Shown here one piece after another: positions 11,058-23,587 of a stretch of DNA of 33,375 nucleotides; the stretch's first letter is position 1; every line of letters starts with the position of its first letter. Made by a program: the position numbers and the translations under genes. The notes under the pieces were generated by a model. The model searched no databases. It was not told where the DNA came from and saw only the letters and a program-made list of their open reading frames with translations. Origin of the DNA: an uncultured Aequorivita sp. (lineage in GTDB: Bacteria > Bacteroidota > Bacteroidia > Flavobacteriales > Flavobacteriaceae); contig CAKZLK010000020.1 in assembly GCA_937125455.1 (NCBI GenBank), positions 1-33,375 on the forward strand, in the 5' to 3' direction.

Positions 11058-11915
11058 ATGACCGAAGAAAAAAACGCAAAAACCGAAGAACAGAAAAGCA
11101 TTGATGAGGAATTGAAGAAATCAAATTCCTCAGAGTTGACACATGCAAAATCGCACGGTGAAATCCTGAAACAACAGATTATTGAAGGGCAGGAAACGTA
11201 TGATAAAAATCCTTTAAGCATTCTGTTAAGCTCTTTTACCGCTGGTCTTGAGATAGGTTTCAGTTATTTGCTAATATGCACGCTGTTTTTTTTTCTTAAT
11301 GGTAAAATAGAAGAAGACACAATTATAAAGCTATTGTCTTTTGTTTATCCTGTAGGATTCATTATGGTAATTTTAGGCCAATCTATTTTATTTACAGAAC
11401 ATACGTCGTTGTTGACGCTTCCAGTTCTCAATAAAAAAAGAACCTTGGGTAGCTTATTAAGGCTATGGGGATTGGTAATATTGGGTAATTTGGTTGGTGG
11501 CTGTGCTATCGCTTTTTTACTAGTTTGGATAGGTCCGCGTTTAGATATTTTTGATCTTCAAACAGTTAAAAAAATAGCAGTGCACGTAACCAATTATGAC
11601 AAGAGCGTAATTATTTTAAGCGCTATTTTAGCAGGCTGGCTCATGGGCTTACTTTCATGGCTCATTGCAGCTTCAAAAAGTACACTAAGTAGAATTGTAC
11701 TAATATTTATGATTACCGCAGTCTTGTCATTTACAGGGCTTCACCATAGTATCGTGGGGAATGTGGAAGTTTTTGCAGGACTTATCAGTTCGCCGGCGAT
11801 AACTATTTCTGGGTATTTGGTATTTATTGGTTTATCACTTTTTGGGAATGCGCTAGGCGGAGCCTTCTTTGTGGCATTGCTTAAATACCGCGCCTTTGTG
11901 TATGATGTTAAGTGA
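11058..11915 (+). CDS. Formate/nitrite transporter (FNT) family channel
   Basis: A 285-residue membrane protein with a charged cytoplasmic N-terminal extension (about 50 residues) followed by six predicted membrane spans. The motifs LGQSILFTEHTSLLTLPVL and GNLVGGCAIAFLL correspond to the conserved FNT pore segments. FNT proteins pass small monovalent anions such as formate, nitrite or hydrosulfide; the long N-terminus resembles the YfdC-like branch, whose substrate is uncertain. It stands alone between two terminators. Confidence 0.88.
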   Translation: MTEEKNAKTEEQKSIDEELKKSNSSELTHAKSHGEILKQQIIEGQETYDKNPLSILLSSFTAGLEIGFSYLLICTLFFFLNGKIEEDTIIKLLSFVYPVGFIMVILGQSILFTEHTSLLTLPVLNKKRTLGSLLRLWGLVILGNLVGGCAIAFLLVWIGPRLDIFDLQTVKKIAVHVTNYDKSVIILSAILAGWLMGLLSWLIAASKSTLSRIVLIFMITAVLSFTGLHHSIVGNVEVFAGLISSPAITISGYLVFIGLSLFGNALGGAFFVALLKYRAFVYDVK

Positions 11916-11943
11916 TGACCCGAGATTACATTTAAAGTAAAAC

Positions 11944-11967
11944 CCCTCTTTAAGAAGAGGGATTTTT
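11944..11967 (+). terminator. Terminator after the FNT gene
   Basis: CCCTCTT (11944-11950), loop TAAG, AAGAGGG (11955-11961), followed after one A by five T: a compact rho-independent terminator. Confidence 0.82.
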
Positions 11968-11996
11968 ATATGTTTAATTAGCAAAGGCCAATATTT

Positions 11997-12134
11997 TTAG
12001 GTTGGATTAATATTCGCTCCAGGCTTTGGTTTAACCTTTGGCTTAGCTGATTTTTTTTTCGGTTTCGTTGTTGCTGCAGGTTTCTTTTTTGGTTTATCAT
12101 CCGGCAACGACTTCATATCTGGCGGTGTTGGCAT
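11997..12134 (-). CDS. Tiny Lys/Pro-rich protein (45 aa)
   Basis: An open frame of 45 codons on the minus strand, starting with ATG at 12134. The translation begins MPTPPDMKSLPDD and continues with alternating KP, KKK and AAT blocks to end PGANINPT. The composition is like the basic, proline-rich tails of nucleoid-binding proteins, but it has no recognised domain. It fills most of the 346-base gap between the FNT channel and the TPR protein, which otherwise holds only the terminator. Support is the unbroken frame with coherent composition; no clear promoter was found. Confidence 0.45.
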   Translation of the reverse strand: MPTPPDMKSLPDDKPKKKPAATTKPKKKSAKPKVKPKPGANINPT

Positions 12135-12261
12135 AATTAAAAGATTTTGGTTAAACAATAACTAAATATACGCATTTAGTAATTATCCTCTTAATTTAAT
12201 TTGAAATAAATATTCAAAGACTATATGAATTTAAGTATTTTAGCATTAGTAACCGAATATT

Positions 12262-14229
12262 ATGAAGCTTAACTCCTTTTTTAAGCAGTGTCACGAAAAG
12301 GAAGTCTTTAAAATGTTGTCCATTTATGTTGTGTCTGCATGGGTACTCTTGCAGGTACTATCTGTAACATGGCAGCCTTTGGGCCTTCCGAACAAATCCG
12401 TTGCCTTCTTAATTATTGTATTACTTCTTTGTTTTCCGCTCTATATTTTTTTTCTCTGGAAATTTAGAATCGTCCCCTTACAAAAAACTGAAATTGATGA
12501 TGATGTAAAGGACCAAAAGAAAAGAATAGCCTTTAAAAAAATGTATTTCTCCTTTTTGGGGGTGATTACTTCGCTTTGTGTAATAGCCGTATTTCTTATT
12601 ATCAACAAAAATTTTTCCCAAGAAAACAATGGAGTTCTTCCAAAAATAGAAACGAGCAATAAAATCGCTGTTTTAAGATTTGGCAACAATACCGGTGATC
12701 CAAAATATGACATTGTTAGTAAAATGGCTTCCGACTGGATAATCCATGGAATTACGGAAAACCAAGTTGCACAGGTAATAACCCAAGATTTGATAGACGA
12801 GTACAAAACGAATTTAAAAGGAAAAAGTACCGATGGAGACGAAAACGCAATAGTCAAGAATTATCTTAATCCCAGCAAGATCATTTCGGGAAATTTTTAT
12901 CTTCAAAATGGAAAAATGCTTTTCCAGGGAATGATAACTGATGGAAACACCAACAAAACCCTCATCTCTTTTAAACCCTCGGAATGTTCCACGGAAAATC
13001 CTTTGGATTGTATTGAAGACCTAAATGAGTCCATAACCGGTTACTTTATTACAGAAGACAAGAAAGGACTGATGCTCCAAGAAACGCCTCCAAAATACGA
13101 AGCTTATAAATATCTGCTTGAAGCAAAATATACCAACGACAACCAAGAATATATAAACCTTCTTAACAAAGCTATAGCGGCTGATGAGGACTATTTTGAG
13201 CCCAAAGTGCTTCGGGTTGCCCATTATTACAATCTAAAAGAATATAAAAAAGCTGATTCATTGCTGCAATTAATAAAACCGGATTCGTATTCAAACAAGC
13301 GCCAACTGAATTTACTGAATATGCATGAAGCACTGCTAAAAGGTGACAATCGAATGGCATATAGGGCTATACTGAAGGAATATGATTTAGCTCCTTTTGA
13401 TTTGATAACGAATAAAACAGCAATGGTTATAGCCTTGCAATTCGTTAACAAGCCAAAAGATGTTGAAGCTATTTACAAAACGGTCAATATGGACAGTATG
13501 AGCCTGCAAAACTGCATGTATTGTATACAAAGGATTTATGTAAAGGCTTTTGCCGATATTGAATTGGGCAAATATGAAACAGCTATTCAGAGTATTGAAA
13601 AGGCACAAAAGGAAGATGAAGCCAAATTATTGAACAAGCCATTGGCCATAGCTTATGTTCGAGCTGGTAAAATTGAAGCTCTTGACCAATTTTTAAGAAA
13701 AATAGGAATTACTTCAACTCCCGCAGAAACCCAAGCACTCTATTTACAAGCCGGAAAGGAATATTTATTGAAAGGCGACAAAACCAAAGCCAATGAATAC
13801 TTCAATAAAATAATAAAGTCAGAGCACGAAACGGTGGCTCCTAAAATGCTATCTGACGCTTTGTTTTTTAAAGGAGAATATGAAATGGCAATGGATATTT
13901 TAAAGAAAATTCTCATCGAAGAGCCTGATAATATTGATATTATAATAAAATTAGCTATTAGTAATTTCAAAATCGGAAATATGCCTGATGCTAAAAATAA
14001 CATTAGCGCTTTAGAAAATTCACGGACTGATTATCAATTCGGGGAAGTGGATTACGCGCTTGCACAATACTACGCGGCATTAGACAACCAGGATGAATTA
14101 TATAAACATCTTCTAAAAGCAGTAGCTAACGGACATGTATATAATTGGAAATACTTTAAAAACGATCCCCAATTCAAAAAGTATAATAAAACGAAAGAGT
14201 TTGAAGAAGCGATGACCTTTTGGAAATAG
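12262..14229 (+). CDS. Membrane-anchored TolB-like/TPR protein (partner of the caspase)
   Basis: A 655-residue protein. Three predicted membrane spans lie at about 18-38, 47-68 and 95-114; the first two (VFKMLSIYVVSAWVLLQVL and the following LGLPNKSVAF) closely resemble the N-terminal module found before TolB-like domains in bacterial adenylate cyclases and CadC-type regulators. Residues about 134-250 form the TolB-N-like domain (IAVLRFGNNTGDPKYDIVSK), and residues about 280-650 consist of TPR helices. There is no DNA-binding or cyclase domain. It ends 36 bases before the caspase gene, so the two are probably co-expressed. Likely role: membrane scaffold or sensor for the downstream protease; this is inferred from context. 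Confidence 0.8.
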   Translation: MKLNSFFKQCHEKEVFKMLSIYVVSAWVLLQVLSVTWQPLGLPNKSVAFLIIVLLLCFPLYIFFLWKFRIVPLQKTEIDDDVKDQKKRIAFKKMYFSFLGVITSLCVIAVFLIINKNFSQENNGVLPKIETSNKIAVLRFGNNTGDPKYDIVSKMASDWIIHGITENQVAQVITQDLIDEYKTNLKGKSTDGDENAIVKNYLNPSKIISGNFYLQNGKMLFQGMITDGNTNKTLISFKPSECSTENPLDCIEDLNESITGYFITEDKKGLMLQETPPKYEAYKYLLEAKYTNDNQEYINLLNKAIAADEDYFEPKVLRVAHYYNLKEYKKADSLLQLIKPDSYSNKRQLNLLNMHEALLKGDNRMAYRAILKEYDLAPFDLITNKTAMVIALQFVNKPKDVEAIYKTVNMDSMSLQNCMYCIQRIYVKAFADIELGKYETAIQSIEKAQKEDEAKLLNKPLAIAYVRAGKIEALDQFLRKIGITSTPAETQALYLQAGKEYLLKGDKTKANEYFNKIIKSEHETVAPKMLSDALFFKGEYEMAMDILKKILIEEPDNIDIIIKLAISNFKIGNMPDAKNNISALENSRTDYQFGEVDYALAQYYAALDNQDELYKHLLKAVANGHVYNWKYFKNDPQFKKYNKTKEFEEAMTFWK

Positions 14230-14265
14230 TTTTTATTTCTTCAATCTTTAAGAAAATACAAGAAT

Positions 14266-16497
14266 ATGGCAAAGCTTAAGAATGCTCATGCGCTTATAAT
14301 TGGGGTAGGGAGTAAGGACCTTCCGGAAACAGTAACAGACGCTAAGGCTATTTATCAAATTCTGGGCGATAAGGAACACGGTAGCTACTACAAAAAAAAC
14401 ATAAAAAAACTTACAGGAAAAAAAGCAACGCGCTTGGGCATTCTTAAAGCGTTTGATGAATTGCTTGAACGTACAGATGAAAATTCCTCTGTATTGCTCT
14501 ATTATTCAGGCCACGGTGGTATGTATAGTGACAATACATTTATTAAAGATGAAGCCAAAAAGAAACCCGAGGCAGAAAACCAGAAATATTTTCACCTATG
14601 CCCAAATGATTATGACCCAAATAACTATGAAACTACTTGGATTAAGGCTGAAGAAATAAAATATAAAATCTCGCAATTAAAATCGCGAAGATTAATTTTC
14701 TTTTTAGACTGTTGCCACGCCGCAGGAATGACGGCAGGTGTTTCAGGACTACAACATAAACACACCAATGCAGACGGTCTTGCCCAAAAGATGGATGACG
14801 GTCGGGGTATGACCATAGTTTCTGCCTGTCGCGCTGAACAGTTGAGTGTTATATTGGAAGGCGATGAAAACAGTCTTTTCACCAAATGTATGATTGAAGT
14901 TTTAAGGGGAGATACCAAGCACGATGCTAACGACCCCTTTGTGCGTATTCTTGAAGTGGTTAAATACCTATTCAAGAGAGTTCCAGAGATATATCCCGAT
15001 CAAAATCCATATGCAAACCTCCAAATATTTGAGGATTTCGTGGTGAGTTTTGATTCAAATTTGATGGATGACAACGTTGCTGATGATGAAATTGAAACTT
15101 TAACAGAAAAAACTAAAAAGACTCAAAAAGAACCAATTACAAAATTCAGGGAAACAGAAAATTCCAATAGTGTCATTCTGTTTGTACACGGGTTTTCTGG
15201 CGATGCGGAAAATACTTTTTCAGAAGCACCCAAACTGCTGATGGCAAATGAAGAAATGAACGGTTGGGATATGTTTCCATTAGGGTATAGCGGCAATGTG
15301 GTACCAGAAATGGGTAAGAATATTTGGGCCTGCGCGAGTGATATTAAAAGGAATTCAGACCATTTGCTGACTTCAATCAAGAATAAATTTTCAAGATATA
15401 AGCGTATTGCCATCGTTGCCCACGATTTGGGTGGCATTGTAGCGCAACAGGCATTGCTGGAACTGGAAAAGGAGGATTTAGATAGAATAAGCCATGTGTT
15501 GTTTTTTGCCACACCTAGCAACGGGTTGCCGGAAATAGAGTTGAAAAACTTCTTTACCTACGGTAATGAAGAGAAGGAACTCAAGGAAAGAAGTCCGTAT
15601 ATGGGACGACTTCGAAATAGTTGGGAGGAAAAATTTCAAAACAAATATCCTTTTACATTTAAGACTATTGCCGCCACCAAAGATGAATATGTTCCCATAA
15701 CATCAAGTTTGGAGCCGTTTCCGAAGGAATATCAGGAAATAATAGAGGCGGACCACTTTTCACTAGTGCAGATTAATGATGTGAATGATGATAGCTACCA
15801 ACTTTTGTTGAATACCTTGATGAATAAGAGTTTCCTCAATACATTTTCGAATAAGGAAGAGGTTAATATTGCTTTGGGAGAATATAATGCGGTAATAAAT
15901 TCGCTGTTGCCAAACCTGAACTCCCTTGACGCCAAAGGACTGGAGCGTTTAATGTATGCTTTGGAAGGTGCGGGTAGGGAAGAAGAGGCAACGAAAATTT
16001 TGGAGGAGCACCCCATGGCGAAGGGTAATTCCAAATTATTGGGTATTTTGGGAGAACGCTATAAACGACAGTATTTAAACACATTTGCCGCAGCAGATTT
16101 AAATATGGCTTTTAAACACTATAAAGAAGCATTGAAGATTTCGGAGACAAAGAAAAACCAAGCACAAATCTATTTTCACGCCATAAACCTGGCGTTTTTA
16201 AGCTTGTTACAAGAGGATAAAGCGGCAATGGCTACGTATGCAGAACAAGCATTTAAAGCTACAGAGAAAGATCCATTTCCAAGTCTTTGGAAATTGGCGA
16301 CACTAGGCGAAGCTTTTCTTTATAAAGGAGATTTTGAAAAGTCTAAAGAAAATTATTCAAAAGCTGCTGCAATGGCTGGTTTACGCGAAAAGATTTCCAT
16401 ACATACAAATGCTTATAAAGCGTATATAAGCCTAATGCAAACAGATAATCCAGAAGATCCGTTTATCAAGTTTCTAAAAACCAATTTCCTGACTTAG
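14266..16497 (+). CDS. Caspase-alpha/beta hydrolase-TPR fusion protein
   Basis: A 743-residue cytosolic three-domain protein. Residues 5-265 are a peptidase C14 caspase domain with the dyad His83 (YYSGHGG) and Cys150 (FFLDCCHAAG). Residues 300-510 are an alpha/beta hydrolase domain of the PGAP1/SERAC1-like type (ILFVHGFSGDAENTF at 304-318); the nucleophile elbow reads AHDLGG, so Asp387 replaces the usual Ser, while an acidic residue (473) and His497 remain. Residues about 520-743 are TPR-like helices resembling the MAP3K TRAF-binding domain (ILGERYKRQYLNT). Bacterial caspases with such partners are predicted regulated-death or conflict effectors. It follows the membrane TolB-like/TPR gene and is ended by a hairpin. 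Confidence 0.88.
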   Translation: MAKLKNAHALIIGVGSKDLPETVTDAKAIYQILGDKEHGSYYKKNIKKLTGKKATRLGILKAFDELLERTDENSSVLLYYSGHGGMYSDNTFIKDEAKKKPEAENQKYFHLCPNDYDPNNYETTWIKAEEIKYKISQLKSRRLIFFLDCCHAAGMTAGVSGLQHKHTNADGLAQKMDDGRGMTIVSACRAEQLSVILEGDENSLFTKCMIEVLRGDTKHDANDPFVRILEVVKYLFKRVPEIYPDQNPYANLQIFEDFVVSFDSNLMDDNVADDEIETLTEKTKKTQKEPITKFRETENSNSVILFVHGFSGDAENTFSEAPKLLMANEEMNGWDMFPLGYSGNVVPEMGKNIWACASDIKRNSDHLLTSIKNKFSRYKRIAIVAHDLGGIVAQQALLELEKEDLDRISHVLFFATPSNGLPEIELKNFFTYGNEEKELKERSPYMGRLRNSWEEKFQNKYPFTFKTIAATKDEYVPITSSLEPFPKEYQEIIEADHFSLVQINDVNDDSYQLLLNTLMNKSFLNTFSNKEEVNIALGEYNAVINSLLPNLNSLDAKGLERLMYALEGAGREEEATKILEEHPMAKGNSKLLGILGERYKRQYLNTFAAADLNMAFKHYKEALKISETKKNQAQIYFHAINLAFLSLLQEDKAAMATYAEQAFKATEKDPFPSLWKLATLGEAFLYKGDFEKSKENYSKAAAMAGLREKISIHTNAYKAYISLMQTDNPEDPFIKFLKTNFLT

Positions 16498-16558
16498 TCA
16501 TACTACTTCCTGTAATACATATATTTTCTAAATAGATTCTTTTCCATGGAAATAGAAA

Positions 16559-16584
16559 AATAGGGCAGTTGCCTTATTTTATTT
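16559..16584 (+). terminator. Hairpin after the caspase gene
   Basis: AATAGGGC (16559-16566) pairs with GCCTTATT (16571-16578) across an AGTT loop with one wobble, followed by a T-rich stretch. It probably ends the TolB-like/caspase unit and separates it from the secreted beta-propeller gene. Confidence 0.6.
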
Positions 16585-16634
16585 GTTTACTATTATTTGG
16601 AGCTTGCATACTGTAATTTTCAACTAAATATCTT

Positions 16635-17882
16635 ATGAAAACTAATTACAATATTACGGTATTACTGTGTTTACTATTAAGTATATATACTTTTAGTTCC
16701 CAAGCCCAAACGTGGCAAAACTTAGGGAATCCTGAAGTAGGAGGGCAACCTATAGATAATATGTATAGCATCGAAGGCCATACTTCGGGTGTGTACTTTT
16801 GTACGGACCGCGGACTGTTTAAATCTACCGATGGGGGAGCTACTTTTACAAATCTTACTTGGGAGAGTGGCATTACGGCAGGGCTTCCCATTTTATGTCT
16901 TTTTATTGACGATAGCGATGGGGCCATGTATATAGGAGGTGAGGATGCTCTTTTTAAAAGCACCAACAACGGGACTACTTGGTCTGCAACTGCATTAACA
17001 GCTTCTGGTACAATTAACGATATTTCCAAGGCAGATACAAATCTAATTGCTGCTTACGATCAAGGTTTTGGCAGCGGGGGTGTTTATTTTTCTGCAGATG
17101 GCTTTGCTACTTTTCAAGAACCTACAACATTGCCCGACTTGCAAATGTTGGATCTTTTGTATTTTAACAATAAAATGTTCTTGGCGGGCGATGCGGGTAT
17201 GTATTCCAGTACCGATGAGGGAGCAACGTGGGGCGTTCAGGGAACAGGCCATCCGGTTGGCGGGCGTTATATAAAAACTGTAGACTTAAACGGCAACTTG
17301 TTTAGTGGTGACATTAATGGAAAAGGCCTTTTTAAGAGTTCAGATAATGGGGAAACGTGGGCTATACCAGATACAGGAACGTTTCAGGATTTTTGTCAGG
17401 TGTTTGATCTTACCGCAGGCGGGGGCGTTATTTTGGCATTGACCGATGGTGTAAATTGCAATCCACAGGGAATTCCAATTAGGTATAGTGATGATGATGG
17501 TTTAAATTGGCAATCTGCAATGGGTAATTTGCCTGGTGCTTTTTATAATGAATTAGGAAAAAGTGCCGACGGATCTTGTTTTTACGTCTATGCATTATTT
17601 GATAACTTGTTGTACACAACTTGTGATCTTGCATTAAGTGTAACAGAAAATAGTTTAGATGCTATTAAAATTGCTCCAAATCCATCTAAAGGTATTATTG
17701 CAATATCTGGGATTGAAAGCGGAACGATGACTTTAGTAAATACCCAAGGGAAAGTACTAAAAACTTACAAGAACATTCCTGTAGATAAAACAATAGATAT
17801 TTCTGAATTTGCCCAAGGATTGTATTTCTTAAATATAAGTAACGAAGGATGTACTAAAACCTTTAAGATTATAAAGAATTAA
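16635..17882 (+). CDS. T9SS-exported BNR/sortilin-like beta-propeller protein
   Basis: A 415-residue secreted protein. A signal peptide ends near SSQAQ. Residues about 45-330 contain repeats of the BNR/VPS10 type (FKSTDGGATF, FKSTNNGTTW, YSSTDEGATW, FKSSDNGETW, YSDDDGLNW), expected to form a propeller. Residues about 340-415 are a type A T9SS C-terminal sorting domain (IAPNPSKGIIAISG ... AQGLYFLNI ... KTFKIIKN), which directs export through the PorSS machinery and cell-surface anchoring. The gene has a hairpin on each side and is probably expressed on its own. Confidence 0.93.
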   Translation: MKTNYNITVLLCLLLSIYTFSSQAQTWQNLGNPEVGGQPIDNMYSIEGHTSGVYFCTDRGLFKSTDGGATFTNLTWESGITAGLPILCLFIDDSDGAMYIGGEDALFKSTNNGTTWSATALTASGTINDISKADTNLIAAYDQGFGSGGVYFSADGFATFQEPTTLPDLQMLDLLYFNNKMFLAGDAGMYSSTDEGATWGVQGTGHPVGGRYIKTVDLNGNLFSGDINGKGLFKSSDNGETWAIPDTGTFQDFCQVFDLTAGGGVILALTDGVNCNPQGIPIRYSDDDGLNWQSAMGNLPGAFYNELGKSADGSCFYVYALFDNLLYTTCDLALSVTENSLDAIKIAPNPSKGIIAISGIESGTMTLVNTQGKVLKTYKNIPVDKTIDISEFAQGLYFLNISNEGCTKTFKIIKN

Positions 17883-17906
17883 ATAAAAAAGACCATTAAA
17901 TATGGC

Positions 17907-17952
17907 AGCCTATAACTATTTTACATTCTGCTGAAAAGGTTATAGGCTTTCC
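17907..17952 (+). terminator. Hairpin after the T9SS cargo gene
   Basis: AGCCTATAAC (17907-17916) is perfectly complementary to GTTATAGGCT (17939-17948), with an additional TTTT/AAAA pair inside. The T-tract after it is short and interrupted, so termination efficiency is uncertain. Confidence 0.6.
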
Positions 17953-18456
17953 AGTTTTCAGGTATTCTATTTTACATAATATAAATTATAGAACATTTAT
18001 TATAAATATGCAAATATCGCTTTTCACGCTATTTCACATAATTCTGTTAGTGCCTTTAGGTCTATAAAAAGGAATTATGTAACAGCATATTTGCGCCACG
18101 CACCAACCACTGTAGTTATAATTCTATATGTTTGCCAGCGCCAAAAAAAACTTCCTTTTTTTGTTATTGAAATTTTAGCGTATTTAAATAATTGTACAGT
18201 CTATTATTTTTTACGCGATTCTCGTGGATTGCCAAAAAAGCATAAATTTTATGAAATCGAGTTTTCTTGAGATTCCCGAGCTCCGCTCTTATTTATCAAA
18301 TAAAAATCTGCAAATAATATTCAACCACTTTACCTGTGCAAAAAAACCATTTACAGTTTGTTACATTAAAATCTATAAGCGCTTACACACCGAAATTTTC
18401 ATTTAGATTATTTTTTATCAACGGAATCAAAAATTTTTATTAAAAAAAATCATAAT
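17953..18456. other. 500-base intergenic region before the export operon
   Basis: No convincing gene was found in this stretch. A 60-codon open frame at 18224-18406 has no coding character. The stretch holds a nested inverted repeat (18010-18094), given separately, and a TATGTTTG at 18127-18134 that fits a -7 element but has no TTG at the right distance. The length is unusual for this otherwise compact window. Confidence 0.6.
18010..18094. repeat. Nested inverted repeat in the long intergenic region
   Basis: Outer arms GCAAATAT (18010-18017) and ATATTTGC (18087-18094) are perfect complements. Inside them, ACATAATTC (18036-18044) and GAATTATGT (18072-18080) are perfect complements around a 27-base loop. 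Together they could fold as an 85-base two-stage hairpin or be paired binding sites. No T-run follows, so it is not a typical terminator. Confidence 0.55.
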
Positions 18457-18479
18457 TAATAGTAATACTATTATATTTG
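18457..18479 (+). promoter_or_regulatory. TetR-operon promoter with overlapping palindromic operator
   Basis: A perfect 17-bp inverted repeat, TAATAGTA-A-TACTATTA (18457-18473), overlaps the -7 element TATATTTG (18472-18479). No TTG lies at the expected -33 distance. The palindrome is 24 bases before the TetR start codon, the usual place for TetR autoregulation. Confidence 0.65.
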
Positions 18480-18497
18480 CGCAAAATTATATTAATT

Positions 18498-19178
18498 ATG
18501 AATAATTTACTTTCAAATTTTAAAATTAATATCCCCCAGGGTATTTATTTAAAGGATCCTGAATCGTCATTATTGGGGAAAAAAATTATTGAACAAGGTA
18601 TCATTTTAATCCATGAAATTGGTTTTGAAGATTTCAATTTTAAAAAATTGGGCAATCTTATAAATTCAAACGAGAGTTCCATATACCGCTATTTTGAAAG
18701 TAAACATAAACTGCTGGTTTACCTCACTTCTTGGTATTGGAGTTGGATTGAATATCAACTTGTTCTAGAAACCTATAGTATTGCAAACACCGAAGAAAAA
18801 TTAAGAAAAGCCATTGAAGTTGTTACAAGAACTACAAAACAAGACAGCAATTTTAGCCATATCAACGAGGTGTTGTTAAATCAAATTGTAATTAATGAAA
18901 ACTCAAAATCTTTTTTAACTAAAGATGTAGATGTGGATAATAAAGACGGTTTTTTTATACCGTATAAGCTTGTAATACTGCGTCTTTCAGAAGTAATATC
19001 AGCTTACAACAGCAGTTATTCCTATACTTTGAGCTTGTCCAACACTATTATTGAAGGTTCGCTTCATCAACATTTTACAAAAAAACACTTCAAAACCATT
19101 ACGAATTGTAATGATAAAAAAACGCCAACAGATTTCTTCACAGATTTAGCATTAAAAACACTTTCATCAAATGGATAA
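18498..19178 (+). CDS. TetR-family regulator of the export operon
   Basis: A 226-residue regulator. The ATG at 18498 is chosen because an upstream in-frame TTG (18477) overlaps the promoter. Residues about 25-75 form the TetR DNA-binding domain; SSIYRYFESKHKLLVYL is the recognition helix and following helix in canonical form. The C-terminal ligand domain is divergent. It overlaps the ABC gene by eight bases, so it is translated with the export operon, and it probably binds the palindrome in its own promoter and represses the operon until a ligand is bound. Confidence 0.85.
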   Translation: MNNLLSNFKINIPQGIYLKDPESSLLGKKIIEQGIILIHEIGFEDFNFKKLGNLINSNESSIYRYFESKHKLLVYLTSWYWSWIEYQLVLETYSIANTEEKLRKAIEVVTRTTKQDSNFSHINEVLLNQIVINENSKSFLTKDVDVDNKDGFFIPYKLVILRLSEVISAYNSSYSYTLSLSNTIIEGSLHQHFTKKHFKTITNCNDKKTPTDFFTDLALKTLSSNG

Positions 19179-20835
19179 AAACAAACTATCGCCTTGGAAG
19201 CGCTTTTTAGGATTAATAGAGCTTGAACGTAAAGATATTTATCAAATTGGGTATTATGCTATATTCGACGGTATTATCGCATTGTCATTACCGCTTGGAA
19301 TACAAGCCATCATCAACTTGATACAAGGTGCCCAGATATCTACTTCCTGGATTGTTTTGGTTATACTGGTAACTACCGGTGTTGCTTTTTCTGGCATGCT
19401 AAAGTTGATGCAAATGCGTATTATAGAAACTATCCAACAGCGTATTTTTACAAGAGCTTCTTTAGAACTAAGCTATCGATTTCCGAAGATTAAAATGAGT
19501 GAATTACGCAATTTTTACCTTCCAGAATTGGCAAATCGTTTTTTTGATACGTTAACCATTCAAAAAGGATTGTCCAAAATTTTAATTGATATGCCTTCGG
19601 CATTATTGCAAATTATTTTTGCCCTACTCCTACTCTCCTTTTACCATCCGTTCTTCATTATCTTCGGTTTATTACTGTTGCTTTTAATCTATATTGTATT
19701 TAAGTATACTGCAAAAAGCGGATTGGAAACAAGTTTAATAGAATCTAAAAACAAATACAAAGTAGCCCATTGGTTGCAAGAGGTTTCACGTGCTGTAATT
19801 AGTTTTAAACTCTCTGGCGAAACAAATTTAGCCATGCAAAAAAGTGATGCTTTAGTATCCAAATATTTAACTTCAAGAGAAAATCACTTTAAGGTTTTAA
19901 TATTACAGTTTATACAACTAATTAGTTTTAAGGTTTTAGTAACGCTGGGTTTATTATTAATTGGAGGGTATCTCGTTTTAGACCAGCGGATGAACATTGG
20001 ACAATTTGTTGCGGCTGAAATTATTATAATTATGGTTATTAATTCGGTTGAAAAATTAGTTTTAGGACTAGAATCCTTTTACGATGTTTTAACGTCTATT
20101 GAAAAATTAGGACAGATTATCGATAAGCCTATCGAAGCCCAAAAGGGTGAAATGATTAAAAGCGATGCTGCTTTAAGCATTGAACTCCAAGATGTTTCGT
20201 ATCAAGTTAGCGAAAAAAGACTTCCTATTTTAAATAATATTTCACTCACGATAAACCCTACGGATAGAATATTAATTAACGGTGAAAGCGGTTCTGGAAA
20301 ATCTAGTTTATTACAGCTTATTTCAGGCGTCATCTCACCAACTTCGGGATATATTTATGTTAATAATCTTTCTATTGAAAGTCTTTTTATTAATGAATAC
20401 CGGGCACATTTAGGTCTGTCTCTGGCCGAGGAAACTCCTTTTGAAGGCACCCTTAGAGAAAACATCACATTTGGCAATTTAAAAATTAGTGATGATGCCA
20501 TCTATCAAGCTTTTAAAAACATTGGCTTAACCGAATTTTTAAAAGAACAACCAAAAGGATTAAATACTGTTTTAAAACCAGAAGGCAAACAAATTGCAAA
20601 TACCGTTGCTAAAAAGTTGGTATTGGCAAGAGCCATCGTAAAGCAGCCAAAACTATTAATTCTTGAAGATCCGTTAGATCACTTTCAAAAAGAAGAAGCC
20701 ACTAAAATCATTTCTTTTTTAACTGATGCAGCGCAACCTTGGAGCCTTGTTGTTGTAAGCAGTCGCGAAAGTTGGAAAGAAAAATGCAATAAGCACATCG
20801 TACTTAAAAATGGAAATATTGTTAATCAAAACTAA
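19171..20835 (+). CDS. ABC exporter with degenerate nucleotide-binding domain
   Basis: A 554-residue membrane-plus-ATPase half transporter of the HlyB/MsbA type, without a C39 peptidase domain. The membrane domain (about 25-310) is followed by an ATPase domain (about 335-554). Walker A is intact (GESGSGKS, 371-378). The rest is unusual: the Q-loop position reads SLAEET, the LSGGQ signature is replaced by KQIANTVAKK, Walker B reads LLILED so the usual Asp-Glu pair is swapped, and the H-loop position reads VVSSRES with Ser for His. It lies with HlyD- and TolC-type genes and should export a substrate directly outside the cell, or have become a regulatory or weak ATPase. Confidence 0.88.
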   Translation: MDKNKLSPWKRFLGLIELERKDIYQIGYYAIFDGIIALSLPLGIQAIINLIQGAQISTSWIVLVILVTTGVAFSGMLKLMQMRIIETIQQRIFTRASLELSYRFPKIKMSELRNFYLPELANRFFDTLTIQKGLSKILIDMPSALLQIIFALLLLSFYHPFFIIFGLLLLLLIYIVFKYTAKSGLETSLIESKNKYKVAHWLQEVSRAVISFKLSGETNLAMQKSDALVSKYLTSRENHFKVLILQFIQLISFKVLVTLGLLLIGGYLVLDQRMNIGQFVAAEIIIIMVINSVEKLVLGLESFYDVLTSIEKLGQIIDKPIEAQKGEMIKSDAALSIELQDVSYQVSEKRLPILNNISLTINPTDRILINGESGSGKSSLLQLISGVISPTSGYIYVNNLSIESLFINEYRAHLGLSLAEETPFEGTLRENITFGNLKISDDAIYQAFKNIGLTEFLKEQPKGLNTVLKPEGKQIANTVAKKLVLARAIVKQPKLLILEDPLDHFQKEEATKIISFLTDAAQPWSLVVVSSRESWKEKCNKHIVLKNGNIVNQN

Positions 20836-20837
20836 AG

Positions 20838-22199
20838 ATGTTAAATATATCAAACAATAGCGTTTCAGAATATGTAGACTTGAAAACCTTTAAGTCTGGA
20901 ACAAAAATTTTCACTATAGAATATCACAAAAGATTTAAAAAGTTCCTTTTAGGTTTTTCTATTCTTTTACTTATAATACTATTCTTACCCTGGACCCAAA
21001 ATATATCCAACAATGGAACGGTAACCACCTTAAAACCGAACCAGCGACCACAAACCATACAGTCTCAAATTCCTGGGCGAATAGAGGAATGGTTTGTTGT
21101 TGAAGGCGATTTTGTGAAAAAAGGAGATACCATTCTTCGCATTTCAGAAATTAAGAGTGATTATTTTGATGAAAGATTAACGGAAAGAACAAACAATCAG
21201 CTTACTTCAAAATCGTCATCTGTTGAAGCCTATAAAAACAAGGGAATTGCTTTGGAAAATCAAATTTCGGCATTGCAGCAAGAGCGCGGTTTGAAGTTAG
21301 AACAGGCTAAAAACAAATTACTTCAAGCGCATTTGAAAGTAAAAACGGATAGCATGGATCTAGAAGCTATTAAAATAAATGCAGCGATTTCCAAAACGCA
21401 ATACGAACGTACTGTTTCACTGCAAGAAGAAGGCTTAAAGGCAGTTAAGGATGTAGAAGAAAAACGCAATAAACTGCAAGAAGCAACGGCGAAATTAATC
21501 TCACAGCAAAATAAGCTTCTAAGTAGCAAAAATCAGGTAATCAACGCTGAACTTGACATTTCAACCATTAAGGCTACGTATAGCGACAAATTGGCGAAAG
21601 TTCAAAGTGACTTGTTTACCGCGCAGTCAAGTGGATATGACACCGAGGCCGAAGTTTCTAAATTAGAAACCAACCTTGCAAACTATATAAAGCGCAATAG
21701 TTTATTATATGTAACTGCACCTCAGGATGGCTATATAAATAAAGCGATAAAGGCAGGTATTGGAGAAACTTTTAAAGAAGGGGAACAATTAGTGAACATT
21801 ATGCCTGCAAATTATGATTTGGCTGTTGAAATGTATGTTAAACCAATAGATTTACCATTAATTCATATAGGCGAAAATGTGCGCGTTCAGTTTGATGGGT
21901 GGCCTGCTATTGTTTTTAGTGGGTGGCCCAATGTATCCTACGGAACCTATGGAGCTAAAATTATTGCAATCGAAAACTTTATAAGTGATAATGGTATGTA
22001 TCGTGTGCTATTATCCCCAGATAGTGATGATATTAGTTGGCCAGAGGCCATTCGTGTTGGTTCTGGAGCAAAAACAATTGCTCTATTGGATGATGTTCCC
22101 ATTTGGTTTGAGTTATGGCGACAGATTAATAGCTTCCCGCCTAACTTCTATCAACCAAACCAAAAAGCAAACAATTCCAACGATAAAAAGAAAGCGTAA
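20838..22199 (+). CDS. HlyD-family periplasmic adaptor
   Basis: A 453-residue membrane-fusion protein: a cytoplasmic N-terminus, one membrane span at about 35-52, a biotinyl-lipoyl-like half motif (IPGRIEEWFVVEGDFVKKGD), a long coiled-coil hairpin (about 120-290), the matching second lipoyl half (LYVTAPQDGYINKAIKAGIG) and a beta-barrel domain. It links the ABC transporter to the outer-membrane TolC-like channel. It starts two bases after the ABC gene and overlaps the TolC gene by one base. Confidence 0.92.
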   Translation: MLNISNNSVSEYVDLKTFKSGTKIFTIEYHKRFKKFLLGFSILLLIILFLPWTQNISNNGTVTTLKPNQRPQTIQSQIPGRIEEWFVVEGDFVKKGDTILRISEIKSDYFDERLTERTNNQLTSKSSSVEAYKNKGIALENQISALQQERGLKLEQAKNKLLQAHLKVKTDSMDLEAIKINAAISKTQYERTVSLQEEGLKAVKDVEEKRNKLQEATAKLISQQNKLLSSKNQVINAELDISTIKATYSDKLAKVQSDLFTAQSSGYDTEAEVSKLETNLANYIKRNSLLYVTAPQDGYINKAIKAGIGETFKEGEQLVNIMPANYDLAVEMYVKPIDLPLIHIGENVRVQFDGWPAIVFSGWPNVSYGTYGAKIIAIENFISDNGMYRVLLSPDSDDISWPEAIRVGSGAKTIALLDDVPIWFELWRQINSFPPNFYQPNQKANNSNDKKKA

Positions 22200-23587
22200 T
22201 GCAAAGACTTGTACTGATATTGTTTTTGTTGGGTTCTTTGTTTGGTTTTTCGCAAACAAACGATACTGTTTTAACCTTGGAAGAATACTTGGGATATGTA
22301 AAAAAATATCATCCTATTGTAAAGCAGGCACAACTCATAACCACGGAAAGTGAAATAAAATTGCTTAAATCCAGAGGCGCTTTTGATCCTAAATTAGAAG
22401 TGGATTACAACCGTAAAAAGTTTAAAGAAACTGAATACTACGACAAGCTAAATGCGGCTTTTAAAATCCCAACCTGGTACGGTATTGAGTTAAAAGCGAA
22501 TTATGAAAATAATGACGGCACCTACTTAAATCCTGAGTACACTACTCCCGAAGATGGTTTGTACAGTGCCGGTATTTCCATAGCACTGGCAAAGGATTTG
22601 TTTATCAATAAACGAATGGCTACGCTAAAACAGGCCAAATTATTTACAATGCAGGCGCAAGCTAATCAGCAATTGGTTATTAACGACATTTTGTACAATG
22701 CCGTAACTACCTATTTTGACTGGTTAAAAAATTACCAATCTAAATTAGTCTATGAAGATTATCTTGTAAATGCAGAAACCAGATTGTCGAATGTAAAAAA
22801 AACCTTTTTCGCTGGAGATAAACCAGCCATAGATACGCTAGAGGCGAGTATTAATTTAAAAAGCCGCTTGCTAGATTTGGAAAAGGCAAAAATTGGATAT
22901 GTTAAGTCAACGTTGGAGCTTTCCAATTATTTGTGGTTAGAAAATAACCTGCCCTTAGAGTTGGAGGAAACAATCTCACCGGATATAACTACCATTGATA
23001 AAATTGATCTAATATTTAATAGTTCGCTGTTAAACAGCACGGAAGATTTAATTGCCAACCACCCTAAATTACAAGAATTTCAAATTAAAAAGAAGATACT
23101 GACCATTGACAAACGCTTAATGGTAAACAACTTGTTGCCAAAAATTGATTTGCAATACAATTTTCTAACCACCAATTATAACAATATAAGTTCTTTTAAT
23201 ACAGCAAATTATAAAAGCGGATTAAATATTAGTTTTCCACTATTTTTAAGAAAGGAACGCGCAGATTTAAAGCTTGCTAAACTCAAACTACAAGATATTG
23301 ATTTTGATATTTCGGCTACCAAAGTCAGTTTAAAAAACAAAATTGAAAGCCTATTTCAAGAGATTGAATCGTATGCAACACAGTATAATATTCTACTCGA
23401 TCTTGTAAAGGACTACAAACAACTTGTGAATAGTGAAGAACGCATGTTTACCCTTGGTGAAGGTTCGTTGTTTCTTGTGAACTACAGAGAGGTTAAATTA
23501 ATTGAAAGTCAGCTAAAATCGATTGATACCGAATATCAATTGTTTATCAGTAAGTCAAATTTATTGCGGGTTTTAAATACATTGTAA
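22199..23587 (+). CDS. TolC-family outer-membrane efflux protein
   Basis: A 462-residue protein with a signal peptide (MQRLVLILFLLGSLFGFSQ) and the two-fold repeated helical and beta-strand layout of outer-membrane efflux proteins. Coiled-coil stretches are rich in Lys/Leu/Glu, and a barrel strand region (SGLNISFPLFLRKERADLK) precedes the last long helix. Its ATG overlaps the stop of the adaptor by one base. It supplies the outer-membrane tunnel of the TetR-ABC-HlyD-TolC export system. No cargo gene is adjacent. Confidence 0.92.
   Translation: MQRLVLILFLLGSLFGFSQTNDTVLTLEEYLGYVKKYHPIVKQAQLITTESEIKLLKSRGAFDPKLEVDYNRKKFKETEYYDKLNAAFKIPTWYGIELKANYENNDGTYLNPEYTTPEDGLYSAGISIALAKDLFINKRMATLKQAKLFTMQAQANQQLVINDILYNAVTTYFDWLKNYQSKLVYEDYLVNAETRLSNVKKTFFAGDKPAIDTLEASINLKSRLLDLEKAKIGYVKSTLELSNYLWLENNLPLELEETISPDITTIDKIDLIFNSSLLNSTEDLIANHPKLQEFQIKKKILTIDKRLMVNNLLPKIDLQYNFLTTNYNNISSFNTANYKSGLNISFPLFLRKERADLKLAKLKLQDIDFDISATKVSLKNKIESLFQEIESYATQYNILLDLVKDYKQLVNSEERMFTLGEGSLFLVNYREVKLIESQLKSIDTEYQLFISKSNLLRVLNTL

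Follow-up and report, generated by a model that had tools for sequence, protein, structure and literature searches.

How a bacterial caspase may be controlled by a membrane partner is the question raised by two adjoining genes in the window analysed here, a stretch of 33,375 nucleotides (contig C20, CAKZLK010000020.1, positions 1 to 33,375 of the forward strand) from the 3.73 Mb genome of an uncultured marine Aequorivita sp., whose near relatives are Aequorivita within the Flavobacteriaceae. Gene 1 (12262..14229, + strand), recognised from its reading frame, domain matches and homologues, encodes a membrane sensor-like protein of 655 residues. After a gap of 36 bases (14230..14265), gene 2 (14266..16497, + strand) encodes a 743-residue protein with caspase, alpha/beta-hydrolase and TPR-S domains. 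A preliminary description, made from the sequence alone, had placed both reading frames exactly so and had proposed that the membrane protein holds or senses for the protease. Our analysis leads to the conclusion that gene 1 and gene 2 make up a single functional unit. We further consider it about evenly balanced that gene 1 is a periplasmic sensor controlling the cytosolic caspase of gene 2, probably in immunity or cell death.

Pairing and shared distribution of the two genes

The two genes come and go together. Among 59 near-relative genomes, its own included, gene 2 occurs in 20 and a full-length gene 1 in the same 20; gene 1 always lies just upstream, as a direct neighbour in 17 and with one intervening gene in three. 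Across 397 genomes of the family, gene 1 was found in 40 (threshold E 1e-60) and gene 2 likewise in 40 (44 matches at E 1e-30 minus the distant caspases of G582, G675, G752 and G768). Both are present in 37 genomes, compared with about four expected under independence, with the proviso that related genomes are not independent. Non-paired exceptions include G584, where gene 1 is fragmented, and G659 and G789, which end at contig edges, as does G793 for gene 1.

Gene order was compared over 60 loci (61 rows minus L173, a duplicate of L148), of which 57 were evaluable after exclusion of L142, L154 and L161, which end at a contig edge. In 55 of these 57, gene 1 lies on the same strand no more than two genes upstream of the caspase; 54 of the 55 pairs are intact, the two genes being adjacent in 36 and separated by one gene in 18. 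The remaining two of the 57 are L115, whose gene 1 sits 5 kb upstream beyond other genes, and the second caspase copy in L135. The preliminary description had named conserved co-occurrence as one check on its two-gene module, with the lack of a conserved neighbourhood counting against it; the neighbourhood is conserved, and presence and absence are shared.

As judged from their coding sequences, both genes are under purifying selection, with dN/dS of 0.04-0.10 in four comparisons, three of which have dS near 1 or above. In addition, the protein distances of the two genes correlate, with r of 0.88 over 47 pairs and 0.675 over the 29 pairs outside Aequorivita (0/2000 permutations), values that shared ancestry by itself could also yield. 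The distribution is patchy: the pair is absent from 10 of 28 Aequorivita genomes and from about 90% of the sampled family genomes.

Predicted architecture and topology

Domain and hydropathy scans agree with the earlier view of gene 1 as a three-helix membrane protein with a TolB-like domain and TPRs and with no output domain of its own. Hydropathy predicts the helices at residues 19-37 (12316..12372), 48-68 (12403..12465) and 97-115 (12550..12606), followed by the TolB-like alpha/beta domain (about residues 132-265; 12655..13056) and by a TPR superhelix with a TPR end-of-group region (residues 278-655; 13093..14226), all on the + strand. Its Pfam matches are of TPR type only, and no winged-helix DNA-binding domain was found in the approximately 18 residues upstream of helix 1. 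In all 38 aligned partners, lysine and arginine are more numerous in the N-terminus than in loop 1, and more numerous in loop 2 than in loop 1. The Cys pair 242/250 is kept in 37 of the 38 and the pair 418/421 in 36. Gene 1 is accordingly predicted to have its N-terminus inside, and since such a topology with three helices leaves the remainder outside the cytoplasm, the TolB-like/TPR part is predicted to be periplasmic.

The structural models, folded from alignments of 21 sequences, have mean pLDDT values of 77.8 and 76.4, a middling level of confidence, and the membrane helices of gene 1 are low-confidence. In a second-look structure comparison, the best match of the gene 1 model was the CadC periplasmic domain (3ly7, 3lya), and the model has the CadC-type periplasmic fold. 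Conservation in gene 1 is highest in helix 1 (0.78); loop 1 (0.69), helix 2 (0.67) and then the N-terminus (0.65) follow, and the predicted cytosolic loop 2 (0.40) and helix 3 (0.45) are poorly conserved. Since conservation peaks at the N-terminus and helices 1 and 2, we place the putative coupling to gene 2 there. In one locus (L171, 7131-11607), gene 1 stands without a caspase; next to it, in the same orientation, come a 141-residue gene and then a TPR-guanylate cyclase, perhaps, from this single case, an alternative output for the gene 1 sensor.

Gene 2 exceeds the Pfam cut-offs for Peptidase_C14 (63.8 bits, cut-off 21.4; about residues 5-266, 14278..15063) and for TPR-S (PF20308; 50.9 bits, cut-off 27.6; residues 540-645, 15883..16200). 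His83 (14512..14514) and Cys150 (14713..14715) are invariant in all 58 proteins holding the caspase domain, and gene 2 is thus a predicted caspase protease with an intact His/Cys dyad. Among related proteases, orthocaspases cut their substrates C-terminal to positively charged residues (PMC6426788). The preliminary description had rightly seen a multi-domain caspase with TPR-like helices and had overlooked the alpha/beta-hydrolase domain between them (about residues 299-525; 15160..15840). By alignment, the nucleophile position of this domain (residue 387; 15424..15426) holds Ser in 29 of 50 full-length proteins, Asp in 17 including the window, and Gly in four; the truncated L154 (Gly) and L161 (Ser) stand outside the 50. 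The Ser is hence lost in 21 of 50, the window included, and the domain is missing altogether from eight proteins. In the window, Asp387 replaces the Ser with Asp473 and His497 retained, so that no triad with a Ser nucleophile is present, and the domain is, to judge by these residues, degenerate. An Asp nucleophile occurs in epoxide hydrolases, and Asp387 may serve as one here in an epoxide hydrolase-like manner.

Hydropathy along the gene 2 protein peaks at 1.31 (residue 144), below the level of a membrane helix, and the protein therefore has no signal-peptide-like start; the caspase and its TPR-S domain are predicted to be cytosolic. This bears directly on the earlier suggestion that the two proteins meet through TPR-TPR contacts. 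Since the topology and the conserved Cys pairs put the two TPR parts in different compartments, those of gene 1 in the periplasm and those of gene 2 in the cytosol, such contact is unlikely on the predicted topology, for which the charge pattern (38/38), the Cys pairs (37/38 and 36/38), the CadC fold and the gene 2 hydropathy all argue.

A candidate signalling route and its rivals

We propose that gene 1 would act as an inner-membrane receptor-like protein, with its CadC-fold TolB-like/TPR part in the periplasm, and that gene 2 would be the cytosolic output, combining a caspase and a degenerate hydrolase with a TPR-S regulatory domain. A change in the envelope would be detected by the periplasmic part of gene 1, and the signal would be relayed through its membrane helices and short cytosolic N-terminus to gene 2, whose protease activity would then be released. 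The outcome would most likely be growth stop or cell killing, in phage infection or envelope damage. The sensor role suggested earlier is thus one that we infer from the predicted periplasmic part. The suggested conflict or cell-death role draws on relatives, where TIR proteins near the pair in 31 of 60 loci, together with the patchy distribution, suggest a conflict context. The window's genome shows no TIR_2 match, and therefore the pair can presumably act alone.

Several observations weigh against this proposal. Gene 2 is lacking from two genomes that carry gene 1, G476 and G680, and in L125 the partner's alignment to the gene 1 profile does not begin until position 90. An hhalign comparison of gene 1 with E. 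coli CadC gave 2.5% probability, from a shallow profile (Neff 2.3), which leaves CadC homology by sequence unsupported, and CadC is not among the 50 Foldseek matches listed for the gene 1 model. PADLOC-DB 2.0.0 gives gene 1 nothing and gene 2 a generic caspase only, so that no listed system is matched in both components. The Aequorivita locus occupies a fixed chromosomal site, unlike a mobile defence island. Moreover, no TIR_2 match was found anywhere in the window's genome (the control was positive in 5 of 14 genomes), and at this site the window's clade has neither the TIR nor the phage-like genes, which puts the conflict context outside this genome.

In the strongest competitor, a cytosolic signal acting through TPR-S switches the caspase, for example a nucleotide from neighbouring TIR proteins, with gene 1 chiefly an anchor or brake. 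On this view TPR-S would sense a nucleotide signal. The TPR-S region is found in relatives whether or not they have the hydrolase. Elsewhere in the phylum, in another family, a hydrolase/TPR-S protein without a caspase lies beside an ASK1-like protein with MAP3K_TRAF_bd and TPR-S (L155, 7607-10407), and the TIR proteins downstream of the pair in relatives retain, in 34 of 36, a Glu that we take to be the catalytic one. Against this stand the lack of a TIR_2 match in the window's genome and the small-gene/TIR block found without the pair in G020, G008 and G026, which makes TIR and pair separable. We regard this explanation as unlikely, if still a serious contender.

Slightly less probable again is that the pair is a housekeeping or stress-response unit, for instance one for envelope quality control by regulated proteolysis, and not a conflict system. 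The fixed site and purifying selection within Aequorivita would suit such a unit, as would the distant gene 1 paralogues (21-30% identity, most matches covering the N-terminal half) in 13 of 28 Aequorivita genomes; CadC itself senses pH and lysine availability and not infection. It fits poorly with a pair missing from 10 of 28 genus genomes and about 90% of the sampled family, with a variable architecture, and with the TIR and phage-protein-like neighbours in relatives. That the genes are merely co-transcribed with no direct coupling, as the gene between them in 18 of 54 intact pairs (once a TauE-family transporter) might suggest, is very improbable given the 37 genomes with both, out of 40 with gene 2 and 40 with gene 1, the absence of gene 1 where only a scrap of gene 2 remains, and the distance correlation in the 29 non-Aequorivita pairs (r 0.675, 0/2000 permutations), to which shared ancestry contributes.

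If the periplasmic-sensor proposal is true, the pair would link the bacterial envelope to a suicide protease by means of just two genes. Prokaryotic immune sensors described to date mostly detect infection through signs in the cytosol. A bolder version, which we offer tentatively and think doubtful, is a bacterial death-receptor-like pathway, in which an output-less periplasmic CadC-fold receptor would directly gate a cytosolic caspase, and in which the TIR-membrane receptors of the full operon and a phage-related small protein (guard, decoy or antitoxin) would couple envelope-stage phage attack to both caspase and TIR effectors. The pair makes the activation of bacterial caspases a directly testable question, for which hydrolase-less variants, relatives that differ in having the TIR block, and Aequorivita strains lacking the pair offer natural controls.

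Related systems, larger operon and chromosomal site

The nearest described arrangement that we found is the EACC1-caspase 'System 4' (Kaur et al. 2020, eLife 52696, PMC7159879). Its 5' membrane gene is the proposed sensor and activator, and its 3' gene joins an N-terminal caspase to other domains. The order of the genes and the proposed logic are the same; EACC1 is a single-helix domain prevalent in actinobacteria (PMC7159879), whereas the partner here has three helices and a CadC/TolB-like/TPR part of about 530 residues. Membership is ruled out by this three-helix partner, with its TPR-type Pfam matches only, and by the NCBIfam model caspase_w_EACC1, against which gene 2 scores 69.5 bits for a cut-off of 140. 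Pfam, which presumably holds an EACC1 model, gave no EACC1 match in the 18 small membrane proteins that intervene between the genes in relatives.

CadC/ToxR-like regulators share the periplasmic alpha/beta plus helical fold behind a membrane segment. CadC has a cytosolic winged-helix output domain; gene 1 has none, possesses three helices, shows no sequence similarity to E. coli CadC detectable by hhalign, and has its output in a separate caspase gene. Caspase and alpha/beta-hydrolase also come together in the VMAP ternary systems, where, in the part of the source describing these MoxR-vWA systems, the hydrolase is a gene neighbouring the caspase (PMC7159879); in gene 2 the hydrolase belongs to the same chain, between caspase and TPR-S, and is often degenerate. 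TPR-S proteins and the bacterial forerunners of the ASK signalosome, for which a bacterial origin is stated (PMC8195603), offer a further likeness. In gene 2 the TPR-S domain, over its cut-off, follows a caspase and a hydrolase. Eukaryotic relatives of the TPR-S/ASK proteins carry a kinase. The logic of a membrane protein plus a caspase in conflict is thus known, and the three-helix CadC/TolB-like/TPR partner is the new element; no description of a TolB-like or CadC-like partner of a caspase was found in the passages searched of the open-licence literature.

In relatives the pair belongs to a larger operon, which did not figure in the preliminary description. A small gene of 73-83 residues lies 1-98 bases 3' of gene 2 in 34 of 60 loci (including L117, L068 and L073). 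Three members were scanned; all match the phage family phrog_419 (best E 4.9e-19), and against Pfam PGDYG they approach the cut-off of 27 without reaching it (26.3, 26.4 and 21.7). By tblastn, relatives occur in 499 of 50,697 phage records, every one below 60% identity; in two streptococcal phages the relative lies near an integrase and a repressor. Its product is possibly a guard, decoy or antitoxin. The small gene occurs also without the pair (L187, L188, L189, L190). The TIR proteins lie no more than three genes downstream in their 31 loci; two that were scanned score about 98 bits against TIR_2, and hydropathy gives one or two hydrophobic segments in 36 of 36. Since the small-gene/TIR block persists at the site without the pair, with small gene and TIR-membrane gene(s) remaining in L187, L189 and L190, it looks like a separate module.

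Additionally, 17 of the 54 intact pairs have between the two genes a small membrane protein of one family (166-229 residues, with an 'IWPLT' helix and a predicted cytosolic part), directly before the caspase gene. Examples of intervening membrane proteins are L072 9325-9870, L073 9053-9679 and L117 7547-8077, with 15 other loci. No credible Pfam family was found for the 18 proteins, and a death effector domain, matched weakly in one of them (E 0.018), was dismissed as noise. Small gene, TIR gene and intervening protein were not found at the site in the window, L066, L067, L024, L032 and L079. A six-frame search of the same loci gave no remnant of the small gene at E 0.1, and a search of the window's whole genome, run without a positive control, did not find it either.

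Among the 10 pair-less Aequorivita genomes, the conserved flank gene was located in eight. The site holds the small gene and TIR gene(s) in G020, G008 and G026, the small gene only in G021, and neither in G022, G023 and G009; in G018 the contig ends early. At the G020 site gene 2 survives as its last 23 codons (70% identity, E 1.5e-4), in a gap that also holds unrelated sequence, and therefore gene 2 was formerly present there, gene 1 being gone too and the downstream block retained. A 67-base match (85%) over the final bases of gene 2 in G008, with no protein-level match, is weaker. No credible gene 1 match is present at either site.

On the + strand, one terminator-like hairpin separates the pair from the formate/nitrite transporter gene upstream (11944..11961) and another follows the pair (16557..16580), with none found on that strand in the 36-base gap and a further one within gene 2 (14800-14814); the consensus scan of 11900-18500 gave nine sites against 5.0 (sd 2.5) in shuffles and is weak evidence. 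A short Lys/Pro-rich reading frame, read by eye, occupies about 11998-12136 on the - strand between the transporter gene and gene 1. Downstream, a BNR-repeat protein with a secretion-system C-terminal sorting domain (16635-17882) sits where many relatives have the small gene and TIR genes.

A dif-like 23-base element (17969-17991, + strand) follows at the same site in the scanned Aequorivita loci, pair present or not, and in other genera it lies close to the caspase at L115, L123 and L124. It is single-copy in eight of nine genomes searched, G005 having a second copy with two mismatches. It may be the chromosome's Xer/dif site, position and skew giving mixed results: dnaA is not opposite the element in four complete genomes, and the sampled GC skew of G017 changes from + to - near 2.77 Mb, the position of the locus, in a noisy trace with sign changes elsewhere too. 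Beyond it, 18477-23587 holds an ordinary efflux operon with a TetR regulator, ABC transporter, HlyD-type and outer-membrane efflux genes in series.

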